Source: Thermoanaerobacterales bacterium
GTDB taxonomy: Bacteria > Bacillota > Thermosediminibacteria > Thermosediminibacterales > Tepidanaerobacteraceae
Direction: 5' to 3'
DNA length: 64,000 bases
Assembly: GCA_012840135.1 (NCBI GenBank)
Contig: DUMA01000036.1
Span: 1 to 64,000, forward strand
Positions 52,569 through 62,431 of the stretch are shown piece by piece. A program made the position numbers and the translations under genes. Numbering within the stretch: the first letter of the stretch is position 1; the number at the start of each line of letters is the position of its first letter. Below the pieces are notes generated by a model that saw nothing but the letters and a program-made list of their open reading frames with translations, did no database searches and was not told where the DNA came from.

Positions 52569-53069
52569 TTACTGCTCCTGGCGGATAGCGCCGTGTTTTA
52601 GTCCCCCTACTGCCTTATAAATAAGAAACGAAACTGCTACATTGGCGGCCGATGCCACCATCAGCGGGATGACCATGGCTGTGAAAAATCCCGTGCCGAA
52701 TTGAGGCAGTGGTATAAAACTTGCCGGAGCGAGAATTCCATTCAAAAGACTGGTTAAAATTACCGCCAGCAACAGGTTGAACCTTTTCAGAATCCCGTAG
52801 ATGGATGCGAAGGCTGCCATTTCGACGGCGATTATAAGATGAACGGGCAAACTCAGCGGGAACCCAGCAGACAGGCTGGTAAAAAGATGGCCCAGAGCCG
52901 CTGTCATGGCACCGTAGCCCGGCCCTAGCAATAGGGCGGCAAGATACCCGGGAGCCGAGTCGAAGGCCACCGTTCCCGTAGGGCTCGGCACCTTGATGGC
53001 GGCCCCTGCCGCGCTCAGCGCAACAAACAACGCCGCCAGCACTAAATTTTTCGTTTTTTGATTTGCCAT
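52569..53069 (-). CDS. cblT: ECF transporter S component, probable alpha-ribazole transporter (CblT)
   Basis: 166 residues, about five membrane helices (LVLAALFVALSAAGAAIKVPSPTGTVAFDSAPGYLAALLLGPGYGAMTAALGHLFTSL). It fits the S component fold of ECF transporters, which work with shared EcfA/T subunits. The cobalamin riboswitch just upstream and the cblS-like gene downstream point to alpha-ribazole as ligand. AAAGGAGGA precedes ATG (53067-53069); the longer frame to 53126 crosses the riboswitch terminator and is rejected. Confidence 0.75.
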   Translation of the reverse strand: MANQKTKNLVLAALFVALSAAGAAIKVPSPTGTVAFDSAPGYLAALLLGPGYGAMTAALGHLFTSLSAGFPLSLPVHLIIAVEMAAFASIYGILKRFNLLLAVILTSLLNGILAPASFIPLPQFGTGFFTAMVIPLMVASAANVAVSFLIYKAVGGLKHGAIRQEQ

Positions 53070-53100
53070 AAAGATTCCTCCTTTTATTAATGTATAAAAA

Positions 53101-53143
53101 GTAAAAGTCCGCAGTCTAACTCGCATTAGACCGTGGACTTTAC
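53101..53143 (-). terminator. Riboswitch expression-platform terminator
   Basis: On the minus strand AAGTCCACGGTCTAA pairs with TTAGACTGCGGACTT (15 bp with two G-T pairs), followed by a T-rich tail, between the cobalamin aptamer and cblT. Confidence 0.8.
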
Positions 53144-53164
53144 CATCATCCCCGGGAATATACG

Positions 53165-53315
53165 CTTCTCAAGGCAGGTCTCCTGGCTCGGGTTCATGGC
53201 GGACTTTTCCTTCCCGGTTTCCCAGTGGATCCATAAAGGCCGCTCCCCGTTACAGTGGCGGGACCGCGCCGGACTTTCACCGGTCTTCCCTATTCTCCCC
53301 GAAGGGCACCTCAAG
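53165..53315 (-). promoter_or_regulatory. Cobalamin riboswitch
   Basis: On the minus strand the order is GAGGTGCCC, GGGAAGACCGGTGAAAGTCC, GCCACTGTAACGGGGAGC and, at the 3' end, the B12 box AGCCAGGAGACCTGCC (plus-strand 53173-53188). These are the conserved core elements of the AdoCbl aptamer. A terminator follows within 30 bases, so excess cobalamin should switch off cblT-cblS. Confidence 0.95.
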
Positions 53316-53440
53316 AAACATTTTACTTTTGTATAAATAATATACTAATCTTTGGATTATGTCAAATGATGAAATTCATCGACTCATCGAAAGACAAATT
53401 AAAACTTACCAGGCATCAACTGTTCAAGTAAGCTTTTTTG

Positions 53441-54739
53441 TTATTCCATTTCAGCCTTGGGTTCAATCGAAATACACAGACCCAACGCTCTATGATAGAT
53501 ATAGTATAATAGTCCGCCTATGATAAGTCCATTTATGGCCGGTATGAAGAATTTAACTTTCCACGATACAAAACCGCCTATTAATACTGAGATTAGACCC
53601 GGCCAGTATATGCCTTCCTTTTGAATAAAACTTTTTCTGGAAACGAAGAAGTATTCGGTAATTATTACACCGGCAACAGGCGTTACCCAGGAAGCGAGAA
53701 TCGATACAAAGCCAAGGAAGTGACTTACAATACCGGATATGGCAAATGCGGTGCCGACTAGAGCGGAAAAAAGCGTAAGATAGAACCGGCTGCCACCAAA
53801 CACCTTTTTTAATGCAAGACCCGAACTGTATGCAGATGTGATGCATGTGGTCCACTGAAGCAAAAAGACAAACACCAAGGCCATAGCCGGCATACCCAAT
53901 TTCATCATAACCTCTACTATATTCCATGGTTCCTTTACACCGAGTTTCGTTGCCGAAAGGGCCATTATCATACCGGCAATTGTAAGTACTGAGGTTGCCG
54001 GAAAAAGACCTACAATGCCAGAATACGTTATATCGCTCCACTTATTTTTTATCCATCTCGTATAATCGGCCACAAAAGAACATCCTACGGCAATCATGCC
54101 GATCTGCATGTTTATGCCCCACATCAACCCCATATTTTGCTGCGGATTATAAGCCCAGAGGCTGCCTATACCCACTCCCATGATAGCTTTACCGACGCCG
54201 AATATAATGATATAAATCATTATAGGTAGACTTACCTAGTTTAACCATGCCATGGATATAATACCGTACATGGCAGGGATCGCAAATACGATGCCAAATA
54301 TTAATGTTACAATATTAAAAACTGTTTTACTCATGGGAATCACTGCAGCCATTGCCTGAGTGGCTATTGAAACCTCTATGCCGTACCAGGCAATACAAGG
54401 TATGACAGTGACAATAAAGGATGTTGCTATATCGCTTCCTCTTTTTCCAAAGGCGCATTCACCAATCAGATAAGTGTTTAATCCCTGTTCCGCTCCAATT
54501 TTACCAAGCGGGATGTAAAATAATACAAGAAGGGCGACAAGGCCTAAAAACATAGCTACAATGGCCTGCGACAATGTGAGGCCGTAAATCAAGCCTCCGC
54601 CTGCCATACTACACGCAAGCACGGCACACATTCCAATATATACGCTGGCCGCATAAAACCAATGTTTCCGCATCGACTGTGGTATCGGCTTTTGAGAATA
54701 CTCTTCTTCAAAATTTACTTGATTTTTACTTTTTTCCAT
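53441..54739 (-). pseudogene. NCS1 family permease interrupted by an in-frame TAG
   Basis: Two open segments in the same frame (54739-54236 and 54220-53441) read as one NCS1 nucleobase/hydantoin permease of 433 codons. MRKHWFYAASVYIGMCAVLACSMAGGGLIYGLTLSQAIVA opens it, and VGCSFVADYTRWIKNKWSD and SYAFFR-like helices follow. The junction reads ...SMAWLN-TAG-VSLPIMIYIIIFGVGKAI. One base change (for example TGG to TAG) explains it; no frameshift is needed. The second half alone starts at an internal ATG without a site. The family includes cytosine (CodB) and hydantoin (Mhp1) carriers, which fits the neighbouring HyuA-like genes. Confidence 0.75.
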
Positions 54740-55000
54740 ACTACTGTACTCCTTTCAGAAAATAAAAGATTTGTGTAGTTTAATATATAAATTTTTGGAG
54801 CAGGAACTTTTTCAATATCACCTCCACATTTTTATGATAATTTTTGACATTTTGATGAAAATATAAAAAAAGTTGGTATAATATATTAAATAAAACTAGC
54901 TTTTTTCCTGCTCGTAAAATAAAAATAACGTTGGCAGTTAAAAACAAAATTAAGCACATTATTTATTTTTGAAAGACAAAGCAATAACGGAGGAATTTTG

Positions 55001-56704
55001 ATGGAAGGCATAACTGTAAAAGAGGCTTATGAAATTTTAAAAGAAGACGGCGTTTATTGGGCTGGTGGAAGAAACGGGGAAACCAGGGTTATAAAATCGG
55101 TGAGTGTTATAGAAATCCCCGATTGCTTAGAGTGGCTTCAGGGTGGAGAAATGATATTGACCACGCTGTATCCATATAAAACTATTGATGAGAGACTCAA
55201 TCTTATAAGAGGTTTGAGCAGAGGTGAAGCTGCGTGTATTTGCATACATCCGGGCAATGATCCGTTTCCTCAGGTGCCCGATTGTTTGGTAAAGCTTGCA
55301 GATGAAATAAATTTTCCCTTATTTTTAATAGACAGAAAACTACCTTATTCTATAATCATGAAAAAAATATATGAAGCTTTACTTAACAGGGAAGAGCTGG
55401 CTCTAAAAAAAGCTCAGGAGATTAACAATATAATGAATAATATCTTATTGACCAATGGAGGGGCGCATGAAATAATAGACAAATTATCAGCGATTACAAA
55501 TAAAAGTGTGCTTTTTCTCGATGAAAATTTTAAACCAGTTGATGTGATTTTAAGAGGGAAAAATGACAGTTTAATTGAAGAAGATTTTACAAAAATATGC
55601 GATTTTGCAAAAAGTTATATTGAAGCGAATATTTTACACAAAAGAAGTAAAAATAAACCCGACCAAACTTACATTGTCACCGGGGAAGATGGCTTTAATC
55701 TTGCAATTTCCATTGTGAATATCAATGATGAGATGGATTATTATTTGTTAGTCATAAAGCAGGGTGAAATGACTGAGTTTGACAATAAATTATACAAAAT
55801 TGCATTTCCCGGGACAATTACTGCTTTAAAGATAGATATATTAAAGAATCTGGCTATCCTGGAAACAGAACAAAGACTTAAATCAGACTTTTTTGAAGAC
55901 ATAATAAATGATGCCTATACATCGGATGAGCTTATGAAAAAAAGAGCCCGAACCCTTGGTTTAAATCTCCTTGACAAAAACTTTGTTGTCATTTTTGATA
56001 TTGACGATTTTGAGAAATACTGCAGAGATAATTATGAAAAAGGTGAAGAACATATACAGAAGATAAAAAGAGACTTGAAAAAGGCGATTGAAGAAGCATG
56101 TAAAGATATAAAGAACAGGGTCCTGCTGTTTGTTCCTAAAAGCGACGCCGGTGTATTACTTTTAGGTTTTACTCAAATTGAATATATGAGAGAAATGCTG
56201 TATAAAAAAATGTTAAACGATTTGTTTTTTAAAGTAGTAGATAGATTTTCCTCAAAGAATCCGGATGTCACATTATCAATGGGAGTAAGTTCGGGCATAG
56301 AAAATATTGGAGAGTTCAAGAGGGCTTACAAAGAAGCTATTTTTGCAAAAGATATAGGCAATAAATTGTTCGGCAGGGGGAAAATTAATTTTTATGATGA
56401 TCTCGGGATATATAAATTGATATCAATTCCGGACAAAAAAGAGGATATATTAAGGGATAGATGGTTTTCCAGGCTTTATGAGCATGATAGGAATAAAAGC
56501 GGTGACCTTATAGAAACACTGGAGGTTTTTCTGGACAGCAACGGCAGCATAAAAGATACGGCGAAAAAGCTTTACACCCATCCAAATACGATAAAGTACC
56601 GCCTTAAAAAGGTTAAGGAACTGACCGGTGAAGATATACTTCAGGATGAACAAAAAAGGCTTTATTATCATATTCTCATAAAAGCTTTGAAGATGCTTTC
56701 TTGA
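55001..56704 (+). CDS. PucR family transcriptional regulator
   Basis: 567 residues. The N-terminal PucR sensor domain (about 1-125) includes GITVKEAYEILKEDGVYWAGGRNGETRVIKSVSVIEIPDCLEWLQGGEMILTT. A central GGDEF-like domain follows (about 320-440). The C-terminal helix-turn-helix (about 510-560) reads NGSIKDTAKKLYTHPNTIKYRLKKVKELTG. PucR activates purine and related heterocycle catabolism genes in Bacillus. It stands divergent from the permease and upstream of the HyuA-DUF917 genes, so it probably senses their substrate. GGAGGAATTTTG precedes ATG 55001. Confidence 0.88.
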   Translation: MEGITVKEAYEILKEDGVYWAGGRNGETRVIKSVSVIEIPDCLEWLQGGEMILTTLYPYKTIDERLNLIRGLSRGEAACICIHPGNDPFPQVPDCLVKLADEINFPLFLIDRKLPYSIIMKKIYEALLNREELALKKAQEINNIMNNILLTNGGAHEIIDKLSAITNKSVLFLDENFKPVDVILRGKNDSLIEEDFTKICDFAKSYIEANILHKRSKNKPDQTYIVTGEDGFNLAISIVNINDEMDYYLLVIKQGEMTEFDNKLYKIAFPGTITALKIDILKNLAILETEQRLKSDFFEDIINDAYTSDELMKKRARTLGLNLLDKNFVVIFDIDDFEKYCRDNYEKGEEHIQKIKRDLKKAIEEACKDIKNRVLLFVPKSDAGVLLLGFTQIEYMREMLYKKMLNDLFFKVVDRFSSKNPDVTLSMGVSSGIENIGEFKRAYKEAIFAKDIGNKLFGRGKINFYDDLGIYKLISIPDKKEDILRDRWFSRLYEHDRNKSGDLIETLEVFLDSNGSIKDTAKKLYTHPNTIKYRLKKVKELTGEDILQDEQKRLYYHILIKALKMLS

Positions 56705-56948
56705 TGATAATTTTTATAAACCTAAAGCATGAGATGTTTTCTAAAATCGTTATAAAACTCTAATTGTCGAACAGACAGGCTGTCATTGGCAGATGAATAT
56801 TTTTTCTGCCATGAGCAGCCTGTTATTCTTGTTATCTTTATGCGACAAAAAATCTTCATTTTTTTGTTGTTTAAAGATATGGCTTTTAATAAGTTAAAAA
56901 AATTATAATAAAACTATTAGATTTTTTGGAAGGAGGGATTTTGCATTA
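56705..56948. other. Gap after pucR
   Basis: Contains a hairpin (CAGGCTGTCATTGGCAG.../CTGCCATGAGCAGCCTG near 56773-56822) that would end the pucR transcript, with TTATTCTTG after it. No promoter is obvious. Confidence 0.5.
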
Positions 56949-57119
56949 TGTCTAAAATTTTGTGGATTAACTTGAAACGCTGCATTTAATAAAACAGGCC
57001 GAAAATGACGGTTATGATGCCGCCGTAAAAAATACGGCTTTGAAACGCCGCCGCTTTTTGAGATAAAACAGTGGGAATTGGAAAAACAATATGATATTAA
57101 AGGATTATGGGACAAATAA
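56949..57119 (+). pseudogene. Decayed racemase-like gene remnant
   Basis: ATG 56949 behind AAGGAGGGA starts MSKILWINLK and stops within 14 codons. A second frame reads LHLIKQAENDGYDAAV (to about 57025). A third, from about 57028, reads RKKYGFETPPLFEIKQWELEKQYDIKGLWDK and stops at 57117-57119. The start and the QAENDGYDAAV phrase resemble Asp/Glu/hydantoin racemases, which commonly stand before HyuA genes. Most of the middle is deleted. Confidence 0.45.
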
Positions 57120-57132
57120 GGAGGAAAAACAT

Positions 57133-58728
57133 ATGGCAAAAGATGTAAGAATTGGATTTGATGTCGGCGGGACTTTTACCGACGGCGTAATGCTCAGAGG
57201 CAAAGAGGTTCTGGCAAAGGCAAAAGCTCTCACTACCGATGATGTTACTACGGGAATCATAAATGCTCTGGATGTTTTATTGAAAACCAAAAAAGCCGAA
57301 GTTTCTGAAATAAGCCTGGTATCGCTGGGAACAACCCATACCACCAATGCAATTATCGAAAGGAAAAATTTGAATAAAGTTGGTATTTTCAGGTTGGGTG
57401 CACCGGCCACCACCGCCATCCCCCCACTCACAGGTTGGCCGGAGGATTTGAAAGCGGCCATCGGTGGAATCGATAATATATTCATTATCCGCGGAGGAAA
57501 AGAGTACGACGGAAGAGACATTGTTCCCCTCGATGAAGAAGCAATCAGAAGCGCATGCAGGAAAATCAAGGGGAAAGTTGACTCCATAGCCATAACCGGC
57601 GTCTTTTCTCCCATGATCCCCGACCAGGAAGAAAGAGCCGCGGAAATCATAAGAGAAGAACTGGGAGACATACCGATTACCCTTTCAAACCATATTGCTT
57701 CCATATCTCTCCTGGAGAGAGAAAACTCTACCATTTTAAATGCATCAGTCATTACCGTAATGAGAAAGGCTGTGGAAGCCCTTAAAAAGGCCGCAAAAGA
57801 GCGCGGCATTGAGGCGCCTCTTTTCATAGTTCAAAATGACGGGACGGTCATGTCTGCAGATTATGCGGTGAATTACCCGATTTTCACAGTGGCGTCGGGA
57901 CCTGCGGCCAGTGTCAGAGGTGCGGTTTATCTTTCCGGCATTGATAATGGTGTTGTGGTAGACATAGGCGGGACTTCGACAGATGTCGCATATATAGTAA
58001 ACGGATTCCCGAGAGAGTCTTCAATAACGGTAACGATTGGCGGTGTTAAGACAAATATCAGATGCCCGGACCTTATGTCCATAGCTCTTGGCGGCGGAAC
58101 AATAGTAAAGACTAAAGGCAACGAGGTTATAGCCCATGGCCCCGAGAGCGTCGGATATAACCTGGTCAAATTGGGCAAGTCTTTCGGTGGCCCGATAATT
58201 ACAACCCATGATATTGCAGTGGCCAAGGGAATCCTTGATAAGAAGCTCGATATCTTTGACACGGACTTTGCGCCTCATATTGATAAGGTTAAAGCTTTAG
58301 ACAAAGACCTTGTAGAAGCGGCATATAATATAATAAAGAATACACTGGAAGTGGCCGTAGACCAGATGAAGACAGTGGCCGGCAATGTCAAGGCTATTTT
58401 CGTCGGCGGTGGCGCGCTTGTGGTGCCCAGGGAAAATCTTGAAGGCATATCTGAAGTCGTAATGCCGCCTCACTTCGAAGTTTGCGGTGCCATCGGTACA
58501 ACCATTGCAGAAATCGGCGCTTATGCAGAAGGTGTGGCGGATTTAGAGATTGAGGATAGGGATGACGCTATAAATAAAGTAATTGAAAAGGCAAAAGACG
58601 AAGCGGAAAAAGCAGGAGCAATTCGAGATACAGTAGAAGTGCTGGATGTGGAAGAGATTCCGTTTGCATACATGCCCGGAAAACGTGAAAAGATACGCAT
58701 CAGAGTCAAAGGTAAAATATTTGAATAA
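57133..58728 (+). CDS. HyuA-like hydantoinase/oxoprolinase family protein
   Basis: 531 residues. RIGFDVGGTFTDGVML is the N-terminal phosphate-binding motif of the HyuA/acetone carboxylase/actin-like ATPase fold; SLGTTHTTNAIIERK and NGVVVDIGGTSTDVAYIVNG are the other two. FVGGGALVVPRENL completes the ATP site. The family members use ATP to open cyclic imides such as 5-oxoproline or hydantoins and normally pair with a HyuB subunit. No HyuB gene is seen here; two DUF917 genes follow instead. ATG 57133 behind AGGAGGAAA is chosen. Confidence 0.85.
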   Translation: MAKDVRIGFDVGGTFTDGVMLRGKEVLAKAKALTTDDVTTGIINALDVLLKTKKAEVSEISLVSLGTTHTTNAIIERKNLNKVGIFRLGAPATTAIPPLTGWPEDLKAAIGGIDNIFIIRGGKEYDGRDIVPLDEEAIRSACRKIKGKVDSIAITGVFSPMIPDQEERAAEIIREELGDIPITLSNHIASISLLERENSTILNASVITVMRKAVEALKKAAKERGIEAPLFIVQNDGTVMSADYAVNYPIFTVASGPAASVRGAVYLSGIDNGVVVDIGGTSTDVAYIVNGFPRESSITVTIGGVKTNIRCPDLMSIALGGGTIVKTKGNEVIAHGPESVGYNLVKLGKSFGGPIITTHDIAVAKGILDKKLDIFDTDFAPHIDKVKALDKDLVEAAYNIIKNTLEVAVDQMKTVAGNVKAIFVGGGALVVPRENLEGISEVVMPPHFEVCGAIGTTIAEIGAYAEGVADLEIEDRDDAINKVIEKAKDEAEKAGAIRDTVEVLDVEEIPFAYMPGKREKIRIRVKGKIFE

Positions 58729-58744
58729 GGGAGGCGGAAAACAA

Positions 58745-59917
58745 ATGTCGAAAAAAGTCTTTGAGACACTGGAAAAATGGGGAATTAAAAACTATAAAAT
58801 CATAGACAAGCAGGCAGTAAAAGAAATCACTCTCGGAGCATCCATCCTAGCAACGGGCGGCGGAGGAGACCCCGAGATAGGGCTACTATGGGCATATAAA
58901 GTGCTGGATGAAGGCAAGATTGTGGTAATGGTTGATCCGATGGACATACCCGATGATATTCTGGTGGCGAGCCCCGCCTGCCTGGGCGCACCTGTGGTAC
59001 TTACCGAAAAGCCGCCGTCTTATGATGTATTAAATAATGCCATAAGAAAACTTGAGCAGTACTGGGGAAAGAAACTTGGCGCGACAATTCCAATTGAATG
59101 CGGAGGAGTAAATTCCACCGTCGCTTATGCGGCCGCAGGAGAATTTGAAGTTCCGGTAATCGACGTAGACGGTATGAACAGGGCCTTTCCCGAGCTTCAG
59201 ATGACCTCATGGGTTACAAACGGAGTAAATGCCTCCCCTACGGTTTCCTGTGATGACAGGGGCAACGTAACTGTAATTGATACCGGCGATGACAACAAGA
59301 TGGCCGAAAATATCGCAAGGCGTGTCGCCATGGCCTACGGCGGCATTTCCTGGATTGCGACATACCCCATGACGGGAAAACAGGTTAAGGAAGCTTCTAT
59401 TTTAAATTCACAGAGCATTGCGTGGGAATTGGGCAAAGCCGTTTACAGGGCAAGAGAAAAGCACCTGGACCCTGTGAAGGAAATGCTCGACAGCCTTAAG
59501 GCTACGAGAAACGTGACGGGGATGAAGGTATTCAAAGGCAAGATAGTGGATATTTCCAGGGAATTCGGCGGAGAGTCGACAAAAGGCTTCAGCCTCGGCA
59601 GAATAAAAATGGACGGGCTTGACGAATATAAGGGAAGTGTGGCAGAAATCGACTTTCAAAATGAATGGCTTGTTTTAAGGATTGACGGCAAAATAAGGTG
59701 TCTGCCGCCGGATCTAATTGCCATAGTGGATTCTGAAACGGGAGAACCAATTCGCACCGATATCATGAAATACGGCTACAGAGGTTCCATCATCCTCATT
59801 CCCGCTCACGAAAGGATGAGGACGCCTAAAGGAATACAGCTGTTCGGGCCCGGGTATTTTGGCTACGACATGGATTATGTTCCTGTAGAAGAACTAAATA
59901 AGGAGGTGGCAAAATAA
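58745..59917 (+). CDS. DUF917 family protein 1 (S-methyl-thiohydantoin desulfurase-like)
   Basis: 390 residues. ITLGASILATGGGGDPEIGLLWA, CLGAPVVLTEKPP, ECGGVNSTVAYAAAG and DVDGMNRAFPELQMTSW are the conserved DUF917 core. NCBI and Pfam now tie this family to S-methyl-thiohydantoin desulfurases, although most members are uncharacterised. It starts 16 bases after the HyuA-like gene (GGGAGG before ATG 58745) and ends in a 1-base overlap with the next small gene. A second copy stands 1.3 kb downstream. Confidence 0.85.
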   Translation: MSKKVFETLEKWGIKNYKIIDKQAVKEITLGASILATGGGGDPEIGLLWAYKVLDEGKIVVMVDPMDIPDDILVASPACLGAPVVLTEKPPSYDVLNNAIRKLEQYWGKKLGATIPIECGGVNSTVAYAAAGEFEVPVIDVDGMNRAFPELQMTSWVTNGVNASPTVSCDDRGNVTVIDTGDDNKMAENIARRVAMAYGGISWIATYPMTGKQVKEASILNSQSIAWELGKAVYRAREKHLDPVKEMLDSLKATRNVTGMKVFKGKIVDISREFGGESTKGFSLGRIKMDGLDEYKGSVAEIDFQNEWLVLRIDGKIRCLPPDLIAIVDSETGEPIRTDIMKYGYRGSIILIPAHERMRTPKGIQLFGPGYFGYDMDYVPVEELNKEVAK

Positions 59918-60168
59918 TGGCTTACAGCTTTAATGAAACGGAAAAAGCCATTATAAAGTTCCTGAAAGAAAACCCCTATAGCGAGAGAAAAGCCGTTGTT
60001 GAAGCACTTTCGAGCATGCCAGGATTGGAAGAATCTCTGGAAAAACTTGCAAATGACATGGTGTTGATAGAACTTACCGGGCCGATGGAATCAAGCCTGG
60101 AATCCAGGGTACCGAAGAAGATATACATGATAAATCCCGAAAAAGAAAGTGAATTAGAAGGGATATAA
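59917..60168 (+). CDS. Small conserved-looking protein of unknown function
   Basis: 83 residues: AYSFNETEKAIIKFLKENPYSERKAVVEALSSMPGLEESLEKLANDMVLIELTGPMESSLESRVPKKIYMINP in outline. The pattern (three short helices then a beta wing) suggests a winged helix, possibly a small regulator or an adapter for the enzymes around it. It starts in the TAATGG junction with DUF917-1 behind AAGGAGGTGGC and is 1 base from the M24 gene, so it is clearly part of this operon. Confidence 0.6.
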   Translation: MAYSFNETEKAIIKFLKENPYSERKAVVEALSSMPGLEESLEKLANDMVLIELTGPMESSLESRVPKKIYMINPEKESELEGI

Positions 60169-60169
60169 G

Positions 60170-61255
60170 ATGAATTATAAAAGGCGTGTGGATAAATTAA
60201 TCGAGTTTTTCCAGGAAAAGGATCTGGATGCGGTAATTCTGGGAGATAGAGCCAATGTGAGGTATTTTACCGGTATGCGGTTTAATACCGCATCCTTTTC
60301 CATCCTTTTTATATCAAAAAATGGCGATGTTGTGCTTTTGACCGCCGTTCTAGACTATAAAAGAGTAAAAAGGAATTGCTGGATAAAAGATATTAGAAAG
60401 TTCCCGGAAGATGACCCAAATTATCTAAATCCATTAAAAGAACTGCTTTATGGCAGAAATATAAAGCGCGTAGGCGTTGAGTTTTCAACCGTTACAGTTG
60501 AGAGAGAAAATTTAATAAAAGAGGTAACGAACGCCGAACTGGTAAACATTGAAAACGATCTTTTAAGGCTCAGAATGGTTAAAGACATGGAAGAAATCGA
60601 AATCATAAGAGCTGCTGCAAAAATCGCGGAAAAAGCCATGATTAATGCCGTAGAGAGCATAAGAGAGGGAATTAAGGAATATGAAGTGTCCGCCATTGCC
60701 CAGGACGTGATGATGCGAGAAGGTGCGGAGGGATTGTCCTTTGAACCTTTTGTCATGTCCGGGGAGAACGCATGGCTCCCACAGCGATTTTCTTCAGATA
60801 AAGAACTTAAAAAGGGTGAACTTGTTCTTTTCGACATGGGATGTGTATACAGGGGTTATTGCTCTGATATCACCAGGACGTTTTCCCTTGGAGGACTTTC
60901 CGACGAACAAAAACACCTTTTTCGGGTGGCTTATGAAGCTCAACAGAAAGCCATAGAGGCCGTGAAGCCTGGGATGGCTGCAGAGGATATTGATAAAGCC
61001 GCCAGAGATTATATTACGCAAAAAGGGTATGGTAAATATTTTCCCCACCTTACAGGTCATGGCCTAGGCCTTAGCATTCATGAAATGCCGATAGTGGATG
61101 TAGGAAGTAAAATTTTGCTGGAACCGGGAATGATAGTTACCATTGAACCCGGCATATATGTGGAAGGCCTTGGAGCGGCCCGGGTAGAAGACATGGTGCT
61201 TGTGACGGATGGTGGGTATGAACTACTAACAAATGCTCCTAGAGAGCTGATATAG
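60170..61255 (+). CDS. M24 (aminopeptidase P/creatinase-type) metallohydrolase
   Basis: 361 residues. The N-terminal creatinase domain (about 1-130) is followed by the pita-bread catalytic domain. The five metal ligands are present: Asp222 (LFDMGCV), Asp233 (SDITRTF), His297 (TGHGLGLSIHE), Glu326 (TIEPGIYVE) and Glu340 (RVEDMVL). Prolidase activity is the default annotation, but the same fold hydrolyses creatine and related C-N bonds. In this operon, cleavage of an opened hydantoin-like product is an attractive alternative. Confidence 0.88.
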   Translation: MNYKRRVDKLIEFFQEKDLDAVILGDRANVRYFTGMRFNTASFSILFISKNGDVVLLTAVLDYKRVKRNCWIKDIRKFPEDDPNYLNPLKELLYGRNIKRVGVEFSTVTVERENLIKEVTNAELVNIENDLLRLRMVKDMEEIEIIRAAAKIAEKAMINAVESIREGIKEYEVSAIAQDVMMREGAEGLSFEPFVMSGENAWLPQRFSSDKELKKGELVLFDMGCVYRGYCSDITRTFSLGGLSDEQKHLFRVAYEAQQKAIEAVKPGMAAEDIDKAARDYITQKGYGKYFPHLTGHGLGLSIHEMPIVDVGSKILLEPGMIVTIEPGIYVEGLGAARVEDMVLVTDGGYELLTNAPRELI

Positions 61256-61264
61256 GTGATGAAT

Positions 61265-62395
61265 ATGAGCGTATATGATATTTTAAAAAGATGGGGTATA
61301 GAAAATTACAGGGTTGTTGACGAACAGGGCCTGAAAGAAATAACCCTGGGAGCGTCTATCCTTGCTACCGGTGGCGGGGGTGATCCGGAGATAGGATTTT
61401 TATGGGCTCTCAATGTGGTCAAAGAGAGAAATGATATTGTGTTAATAGACCCAAAAGACTTTCCGGATGACGCCCTGGCCGCCATAGCCGGTTGCCTGGG
61501 AGCGCCTGTTGTTTTGACGGAAAAACCCCCGAATGGTAAGGAAGTCCTGTGGTGCTTAGAAAGTTTAAAAAGGTATTTGGGAAAAGAAATTCAGGCCATT
61601 GTCCCTCCTGAGGCCGGAGGGGTAAATACTCCTGTTCCGATGGCGGTTGCCGGGGCTGTAGGCATCCCGGTGGTCGATGCGGACGGCATGGGGAGGGCTT
61701 TTCCAGAGCTTCAGATGACCTCCTTTTATACCCATGGCATTATGCCGTCTCCCACGGCGGCGGCCAATGAAAAAGGAGCGGTAACTGTGGCGGATACCGC
61801 ATGTGCCCTTATGGCGGAAAGAATAATAAGAAATGCGGCCATGGCCTACGGTGGAATATCCTGGATTGCGGGGTACCCGATGACCGGCAGGCAGCTTAAA
61901 GAAGCGGCCATCTTTAATTCCATTTCAAAGAGCTGGGAACTGGGTAAGGCGGTCTACAAATGCAGGAAAACCCATGACGACCCCATTGAAAACATAGTGA
62001 AGATAGTCGGAGGATATAAAGTTTTCAAGGGCAAGATTGTAGATATAAATCGCGAATTCGGAGCGGAAAAGACTAAAGGGTTCTCCATGGGGAGGCTCAC
62101 TCTGGAAGGACTTGAGGAATATAAGGGTGAAAGGGCTTTCGTGGATTTCCAGAACGAATGGCTGAGGCTTGAAATAAGCGGAAAAGTCAAATGCCTGACG
62201 CCGGATTTAATATTAATACTGGATTCGGAAACCGGTGAGCCTATAAGGACCGATATAGTAAAATACGGATATCGCGGAAGCATAGTTGTAGTTCCCGCCG
62301 ATGAAAAGATGCGAACCGAACTGGGCATTGAAACCTTCGGGCCGAAGTATTTTGGATATGAAGAGGATTATACTACCGTAGAAAAGCTGGTATGA
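61265..62395 (+). CDS. DUF917 family protein 2
   Basis: 376 residues, paralogue of DUF917-1 with the same core: ITLGASILATGGGGDPEIGFLWAL, CLGAPVVLTEKPP, EAGGVNTPVPMAVAG and DADGMGRAFPELQMTSF. The C-terminal phrases PIRTDIVKYGYRGS and FGPKYFGYEEDYT match copy 1. The two differ at several core positions (ECGGVNST against EAGGVNTP), so they may form a heteromer or act on different intermediates. ATG 61265 behind AGGTGA is chosen over 61256/61259. Confidence 0.85.
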   Translation: MSVYDILKRWGIENYRVVDEQGLKEITLGASILATGGGGDPEIGFLWALNVVKERNDIVLIDPKDFPDDALAAIAGCLGAPVVLTEKPPNGKEVLWCLESLKRYLGKEIQAIVPPEAGGVNTPVPMAVAGAVGIPVVDADGMGRAFPELQMTSFYTHGIMPSPTAAANEKGAVTVADTACALMAERIIRNAAMAYGGISWIAGYPMTGRQLKEAAIFNSISKSWELGKAVYKCRKTHDDPIENIVKIVGGYKVFKGKIVDINREFGAEKTKGFSMGRLTLEGLEEYKGERAFVDFQNEWLRLEISGKVKCLTPDLILILDSETGEPIRTDIVKYGYRGSIVVVPADEKMRTELGIETFGPKYFGYEEDYTTVEKLV

Positions 62396-62397
62396 TT

Positions 62398-62431
62398 AAA
62401 AAGCTCCTACCTTTGGGTAGGAGCTTTTTTA
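62398..62431 (+). terminator. Terminator of the HyuA-DUF917 operon
   Basis: AAGCTCCTAC (62401-62410) pairs with GTAGGAGCTT (62417-62426), followed by T6. Confidence 0.88.

Follow-up and report, generated by a model that had tools for sequence, protein, structure and literature searches.

A HyuA-DUF917 operon without HyuB in a Thermoanaerobacterales genome: a candidate system for cyclic amide catabolism

We analysed a 64,000-nucleotide stretch from a Thermoanaerobacterales bacterium (assembly GCA_012840135.1, contig DUMA01000036.1, positions 1 to 64,000; hereafter the window), which contains at 57133-62395 a five-gene operon that combines a short HyuA-type ATPase with two DUF917 proteins. The genome of the window (G000) measures 3.18 Mb and is 99% complete; G001 is a same-genus relative with a finished one-contig genome. 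L-numbers denote retrieved loci and C51 is a contig of G000. All five genes lie on the forward strand. The first (57133..58728) encodes a HyuA of 531 amino acids (aa), an ASKHA-type ATPase with Pfam domains Hydant_A_N and Hydantoinase_A. It is followed by DUF917a (58745..59917; 390 aa), a protein of 83 aa (59917..60168), a PepQ-like M24 metallohydrolase of the pita-bread type (60170..61255; Creatinase_N and Peptidase_M24) and DUF917b (61265..62395; 376 aa), both DUF917 copies showing S-Me-THD_N/C. The intergenic gaps are 16, -1, 1 and 9 bases, when DUF917b is read from the ATG at 61265, and an intrinsic terminator (62398..62430, +; hairpin of -22.1 kcal/mol, z -5.3, followed by a T-run) lies directly behind DUF917b. 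This confirms the coordinates, order, spacing and shared terminator of the initial annotation; Pfam also agrees with its family calls for HyuA, DUF917 (twice) and M24.

A sixth gene, directly before HyuA, had been overlooked. It corresponds to an Asp/Glu/hydantoin racemase, which in relatives usually occupies the same place, has 256-257 aa, matches PF01177 with 121.9 bits and carries both active-site cysteines. The window retains only a remnant (56948..57122, +), consisting of three collinear pieces from 56948, 56974 and 57027, with internal deletions of ~145 and ~458 bp compared with L014. Further upstream are an intact gene for a PucR-type transcriptional regulator (54998..56704, +; PucR, GGDEF_2 and HTH_30), the likely regulator, and a gene for an NCS1 (cytosine/hydantoin-type) permease (53441..54739, -). 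The reading frame of the latter is broken at codon 168 by a TAG (54236-54238), where the sister genome encodes Trp; otherwise the gene is 95% identical to the intact G001 copy. In G001 both the racemase (257 aa) and the permease (432 aa) are intact and the six-gene operon is complete; an open reading frame of 492 aa, perhaps a transposase, lies there between PucR and the racemase (L037 10661-12139) and is missing at that place in the window.

Profile searches of G000 and of the finished G001 identified no HyuB (PF02538). The short HyuA thus lacks its usual partner anywhere in the window's genome, as had been noted for the operon itself, and a HyuB hidden elsewhere in the genome is ruled out. 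Given that G001 combines an intact six-gene operon with the absence of HyuB, HyuB is not obligatory.

In the HyuA of the window the two phosphate motifs are present as DVGGTFTD (residue 10) and DIGGTSTD (residue 277); ATP-phosphate and adenosine motifs were defined according to work on caprolactamase (PMC8453981). The C-terminal domain found in canonical HyuA is missing from it. G000 has two HyuA proteins and five DUF917 genes. The other HyuA-like protein (~557 aa; L011 5361-8346; L038, L042) has no DUF917 beside it, and its neighbour resembles, judged by eye, histone deacetylase/acetoin-utilisation enzymes. G001 and G013 have this pair as well, and a similar HyuA is found in most genomes of the class.

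DUF917 is the former name of S-Me-THD_N/C (PF06032 and PF20906), for which both operon copies score above the gathering cut-off. DUF917a and DUF917b are 61% identical and fall within a single operon-specific clade with support 99/100. Inside this clade the DUF917a side is supported by 99/97; the fork at the DUF917b side has 82/91 and is drawn open. The conserved residues GGGG, E118, D140, R146 and NE306-307 are shared by the only relative with a solved structure, 2o3i. Since 2o3i was also the sole significant match of the predicted DUF917 model in PDB, other folds gave no hint of function. The only functions in the NCBIfam superfamily are the desulfuration of thiohydantoin (NF058529) and of S-methyl-thiohydantoin (NF058532), and the 72-87 bits that DUF917a and DUF917b obtain on these models lie far below the equivalog cut-offs of 440-450. 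We found no function for the HyuA-DUF917 pair in the open literature searched. Another DUF917 gene of G000 (L010 1710-10201) stands in a run of genes that we named by eye as M29-like aminopeptidase-type, oligopeptide (OPT-like) transporter, racemase-like, DUF1177-like and AroM-like.

The initial annotation had suggested that M24 might cleave guanidino C-N bonds. Creatinase has the pita-bread fold without the metal ligands and retains a catalytic histidine. In the M24 proteins studied here all five ligands of the dinuclear prolidase centre (D222, D233, H297, E326 and E340) are invariant, while in the operonic copies LPQR or LPRR replaces LPH, by which the histidine has become Gln or Arg. The closest solved relative is a Pyrococcus Xaa-Pro dipeptidase (1pv9). 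A creatinase-like cleavage was therefore rejected. L023 and L026 contain additional M24 copies, in which HH is retained at the LPH position. The operonic M24 is not a PepQ equivalog either (279.7 bits, cut-off 630). A search limited to the TIGR01879 family of carbamoylases identified none in several operon genomes, among them G000, G001, G007, G013, G017, Desulfosporosinus and Thermovorax, by which M24 becomes a candidate for a second catalytic step.

The 83-aa protein represents a new family, with no match in Pfam or NCBIfam and no significant sequence match in PDB. Its model (H-H-H-E-E, pLDDT 77) predicts a winged-helix fold; the best PDB matches are MarR/PadR winged-helix proteins with a TM-score of ~0.7, which are weak, none having an E-value below 0.001. 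Invariant residues ESRV..K....NP are located in and after the predicted wing, and the stretch between the wing strands, ESRV..K, is the best conserved part.

A scan of the genome collection, queried with the HyuA sequence alone, retrieved 23 loci. DUF917 is the immediate neighbour of HyuA in 21 of these; in the other two the contig ends there (L030) or the gene is a fragment (L035). All five genes occur in the same order in 12 of the 23 (L014, L016, L018-L021, L023-L027 and L029), a count that includes L027, for which the small protein came from tblastn. Hosts are Thermosediminibacterales, Acetomicrobium (Synergistota), Desulfosporosinus and Bacillaceae, and HyuA identity ranges from 68 to 98%. 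The predicted co-occurrence of the five families is therefore real: the same order in 12 loci from several phyla is beyond chance. In L017 the parts are the same but differently arranged, and L028 (Brevibacillus) shows only HyuA-DUF917a, with PucR and MFS. The usual transporters at five-gene loci are NCS1 or MFS. Among 398 genomes sampled from the phylum the 83-aa family was detected in only 6, which marks the five-gene unit as rare and patchily distributed; an 85% HyuA identity to a Synergistota genome makes its horizontal transfer likely.

The pair of a short HyuA and one DUF917 has a far wider distribution, including Haloferax, Parageobacillus, Mesorhizobium, Streptomycetaceae and Lactiplantibacillus plasmids, as well as an archaeal metagenome-assembled genome and spirochaetes (L031-L033). 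In the plasmid regions read, HyuA-DUF917 pairs only were seen and no five-gene unit. A Haloferax mediterranei plasmid (L055 6007-10835) has an ABC transporter followed by DUF917-HyuA-DUF917-DUF917. On a Streptomycetaceae plasmid (L058 4436-9757) the order is HyuA-DUF917-OsmC-cysteine-synthase-like-DUF917, which hints at a sulfur-containing substrate.

The island seems prone to decay. Besides the damage in the window, the L014 permease carries a TAG, in L015/L049 the racemase is broken and DUF917b truncated, and in L035 (Fervidicola) a HyuA fragment is all that is left. The premature stops in decayed accessory genes are TAG in four out of four cases. Pyrrolysine codons were considered and rejected: no pyrrolysyl-tRNA synthetase (PylS) reaches the cut-off in any of the 26 genomes of the class, and the four stops were hence read as decay. 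The window operon is thus devoid of its racemase and, apparently, of a working permease, so that this copy is probably only partly functional or depends on substrate that arrives by another route. All five remaining genes show purifying selection, with ratios of non-synonymous to synonymous substitution rates (dN/dS) of 0.016-0.10 against the two nearest relatives (G001 and L014), values that also cover the period preceding the loss of the racemase and so do not prove that selection persists today. Elsewhere in the window, a cobalamin riboswitch (RF00174, 113 bits; 53156-53328, -) lies just upstream of a gene for a 185-aa membrane protein (52569-53126), which by eye resembles a vitamin transporter component.

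The gene families are already known; their combination is undescribed. Among the nearest parallels is the hyu operon of Pseudomonas sp. NS671, the ATP-dependent hydantoinase system, together with the NCS1 permease Mhp1, a hydantoin transporter (PMC4195764). The likeness consists of a HyuA-type ATPase, an Asp/Glu/hydantoin racemase, an NCS1 permease and a separate hydrolase for the linear product, whereas the unit described here lacks HyuB, has DUF917 twice, M24 instead of a HyuC-type carbamoylase, an additional 83-aa protein and a HyuA without the C-terminal domain. With caprolactamase CapAB, 5-oxoprolinase and acetophenone carboxylase it shares both ATP-phosphate motifs and a clear similarity of HyuA to the large subunits, yet there is no CapB/HyuB metal-site subunit and HyuA has 531 rather than ~690 aa. 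The thiohydantoin desulfurases are homologous to DUF917 over nearly its full length and share the 2o3i fold; unlike these, the window's DUF917 proteins are HyuA-paired, duplicated and remote from either equivalog. M24 resembles PepQ and the Pyrococcus prolidase in family and in the five metal ligands, but differs at LPH. Finally, RefSeq annotates unnamed DUF917-HyuA-cytosine permease clusters in which a short HyuA stands beside DUF917, often with NCS1 and PucR; these usually have one DUF917 per HyuA, and those read contain neither M24 nor the 83-aa protein.

We propose that the operon serves to break down a cyclic amide, for which a 5-substituted hydantoin or a close analogue is the most likely candidate, with HyuA and DUF917 opening the ring and M24 acting on the linear product; we set the probability of this reading at about 0.5. 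In the ancestral unit an NCS1 or MFS permease would import the ring compound and the racemase would interconvert its enantiomers. The short HyuA would then activate the ring carbonyl by ATP-dependent phosphorylation, and DUF917a/b, as hydrolytic partner, would direct water to the activated ring carbon, upon which the ring opens. The thiohydantoin desulfurase relatives of DUF917 would work by the same chemistry, the leaving group on the ring carbon being sulfur. M24 would hydrolyse the linear product, an N-carbamoyl amino acid or dipeptide-like amide, to the amino acid. PucR would regulate the operon, and the 83-aa winged-helix protein may regulate locally or serve as a small subunit.

The observations themselves comprise gene content, conservation, selection, motifs, the lack of HyuB and the association of short HyuA with DUF917; ring opening, the division of labour, the substrate class and the formation of a complex are inferred. 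That DUF917 may be the second partner of HyuA is suggested by analogy, because in caprolactamase a large subunit believed to activate the lactam by means of ATP is paired with a metal-bearing subunit thought to open it (PMC8453981). The membership of DUF917 in the (S-methyl-)thiohydantoin desulfurase superfamily speaks for the proposed reading. Hydantoin-type degradation, as initially envisaged, also agrees with a gene set of racemase, ATPase and NCS1 permease that parallels hyu operons, DUF917 occupying the place of HyuB and M24 that of HyuC. We further propose, tentatively and at somewhat less than even odds, that short HyuA and DUF917 form another class of two-component ATP-dependent cyclic amidases, independent of HyuB, which occurs in both bacteria and archaea and relies on DUF917 to hydrolyse the phosphorylated ring. 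The five-gene operon would then be an elaborated form, with DUF917 duplicated and with an M24 amidase of its own and a new small subunit of the winged-helix type.

Several observations weigh against ring opening by HyuA and DUF917. The GxxPGP adenosine motif is missing from the window's HyuA and from its DUF917-paired relatives, whereas canonical HyuA sequences have it. DUF917 genes without HyuA beside them also exist, and no paper with assays behind the names thiohydantoin and S-methyl-thiohydantoin desulfurase was found in the open literature. HyuB, present in 8 of the 26 genomes of the class, occurs in 6 of the 9 with a window-type HyuA and in 2 of the 17 others (Fisher p = 0.008, only indicative since related genomes are not independent and the nine include G014 with a fragment only). 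It was also identified somewhere in all of eight further genomes with the five-gene unit, and a canonical HyuA/HyuB pair lies within the same cluster in L018, L029/L053 and L023-L027. Where both are present, HyuA/HyuB may perform the ring opening. The refuting case named initially, a HyuB gene invariably present elsewhere, does not apply, as G000 and G001 have none. HyuB is thus dispensable there, but the original idea that DUF917 takes its role is too simple: most operon-bearing genomes also carry canonical HyuA/HyuB, often in the same cluster, so that DUF917 does not simply replace HyuB. A functional connection between the operon and HyuA/HyuB is likely in most hosts.

Such a connection is explicit when HyuA/HyuB and HyuA/DUF917 are regarded as separate enzymes that act in sequence on one compound, in a pathway with two rings or two steps of which window-type genomes keep only the second half. 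The shared clusters and the association of HyuB with the operon fit this, as does the presence in G000 of a HyuA fragment with two stops (C51), in addition to the decayed racemase and the interrupted permease. Nevertheless, no HyuB stands next to the unit in L014 and L019-L021, and G001 has none anywhere, by which we regard this reading as unlikely. It overlaps with our preferred explanation, as HyuA/DUF917 stays one enzyme, given a second step. The sulfur-related superfamily functions and the Streptomycetaceae pair followed by OsmC and a cysteine-synthase-family gene would suit a pathway in which a (methyl)thiohydantoin loses its sulfur or methanethiol through DUF917 and the resulting hydantoin then passes to HyuA, together with HyuB in genomes that have it. 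Considering the low scores on the desulfurase models, the absence of a recognised sulfur gene, among the families searched, from five-gene loci and the fact that G001 has no HyuB to act after desulfuration, this is quite improbable.

A further reading is the degradation of cyclic dipeptides (diketopiperazines), where HyuA and DUF917 would open a six-membered ring and M24 would cleave the resulting dipeptide. M24 is nearest to metal-dependent Xaa-Pro dipeptidases, a proline-racemase-family gene stands beside the operon in L015 and L021, and peptide-type transporters and M29-like aminopeptidases accompany other DUF917 genes of G000. An enrichment of DUF917 genes around cyclodipeptide oxidases has been described (PMC11055893), and in a 2013 study 15 peptidases were inactive on diketopiperazines, leaving the responsible enzymes unclear (PMC3852281). 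The transporters at the operon are however NCS1 or MFS rather than peptide type, its M24 is without the LPH histidine of prolidases, and hydantoins would account equally well or better for the hydantoin-type racemase and PucR, which renders cyclic dipeptides a doubtful substrate.

The combination of short HyuA and DUF917 deserves attention since DUF917 is common and, in the loci retrieved with HyuA, nearly always stands beside a short HyuA. G001-type genomes offer the six-gene unit without any HyuB, which makes a biochemical test simple. Enzymes that open stable cyclic amides, perhaps including cyclic dipeptides, would have practical use. If HyuA and DUF917 indeed form a HyuB-free ring opener, many genes now annotated as hydantoinase/oxoprolinase would have to be reassigned.

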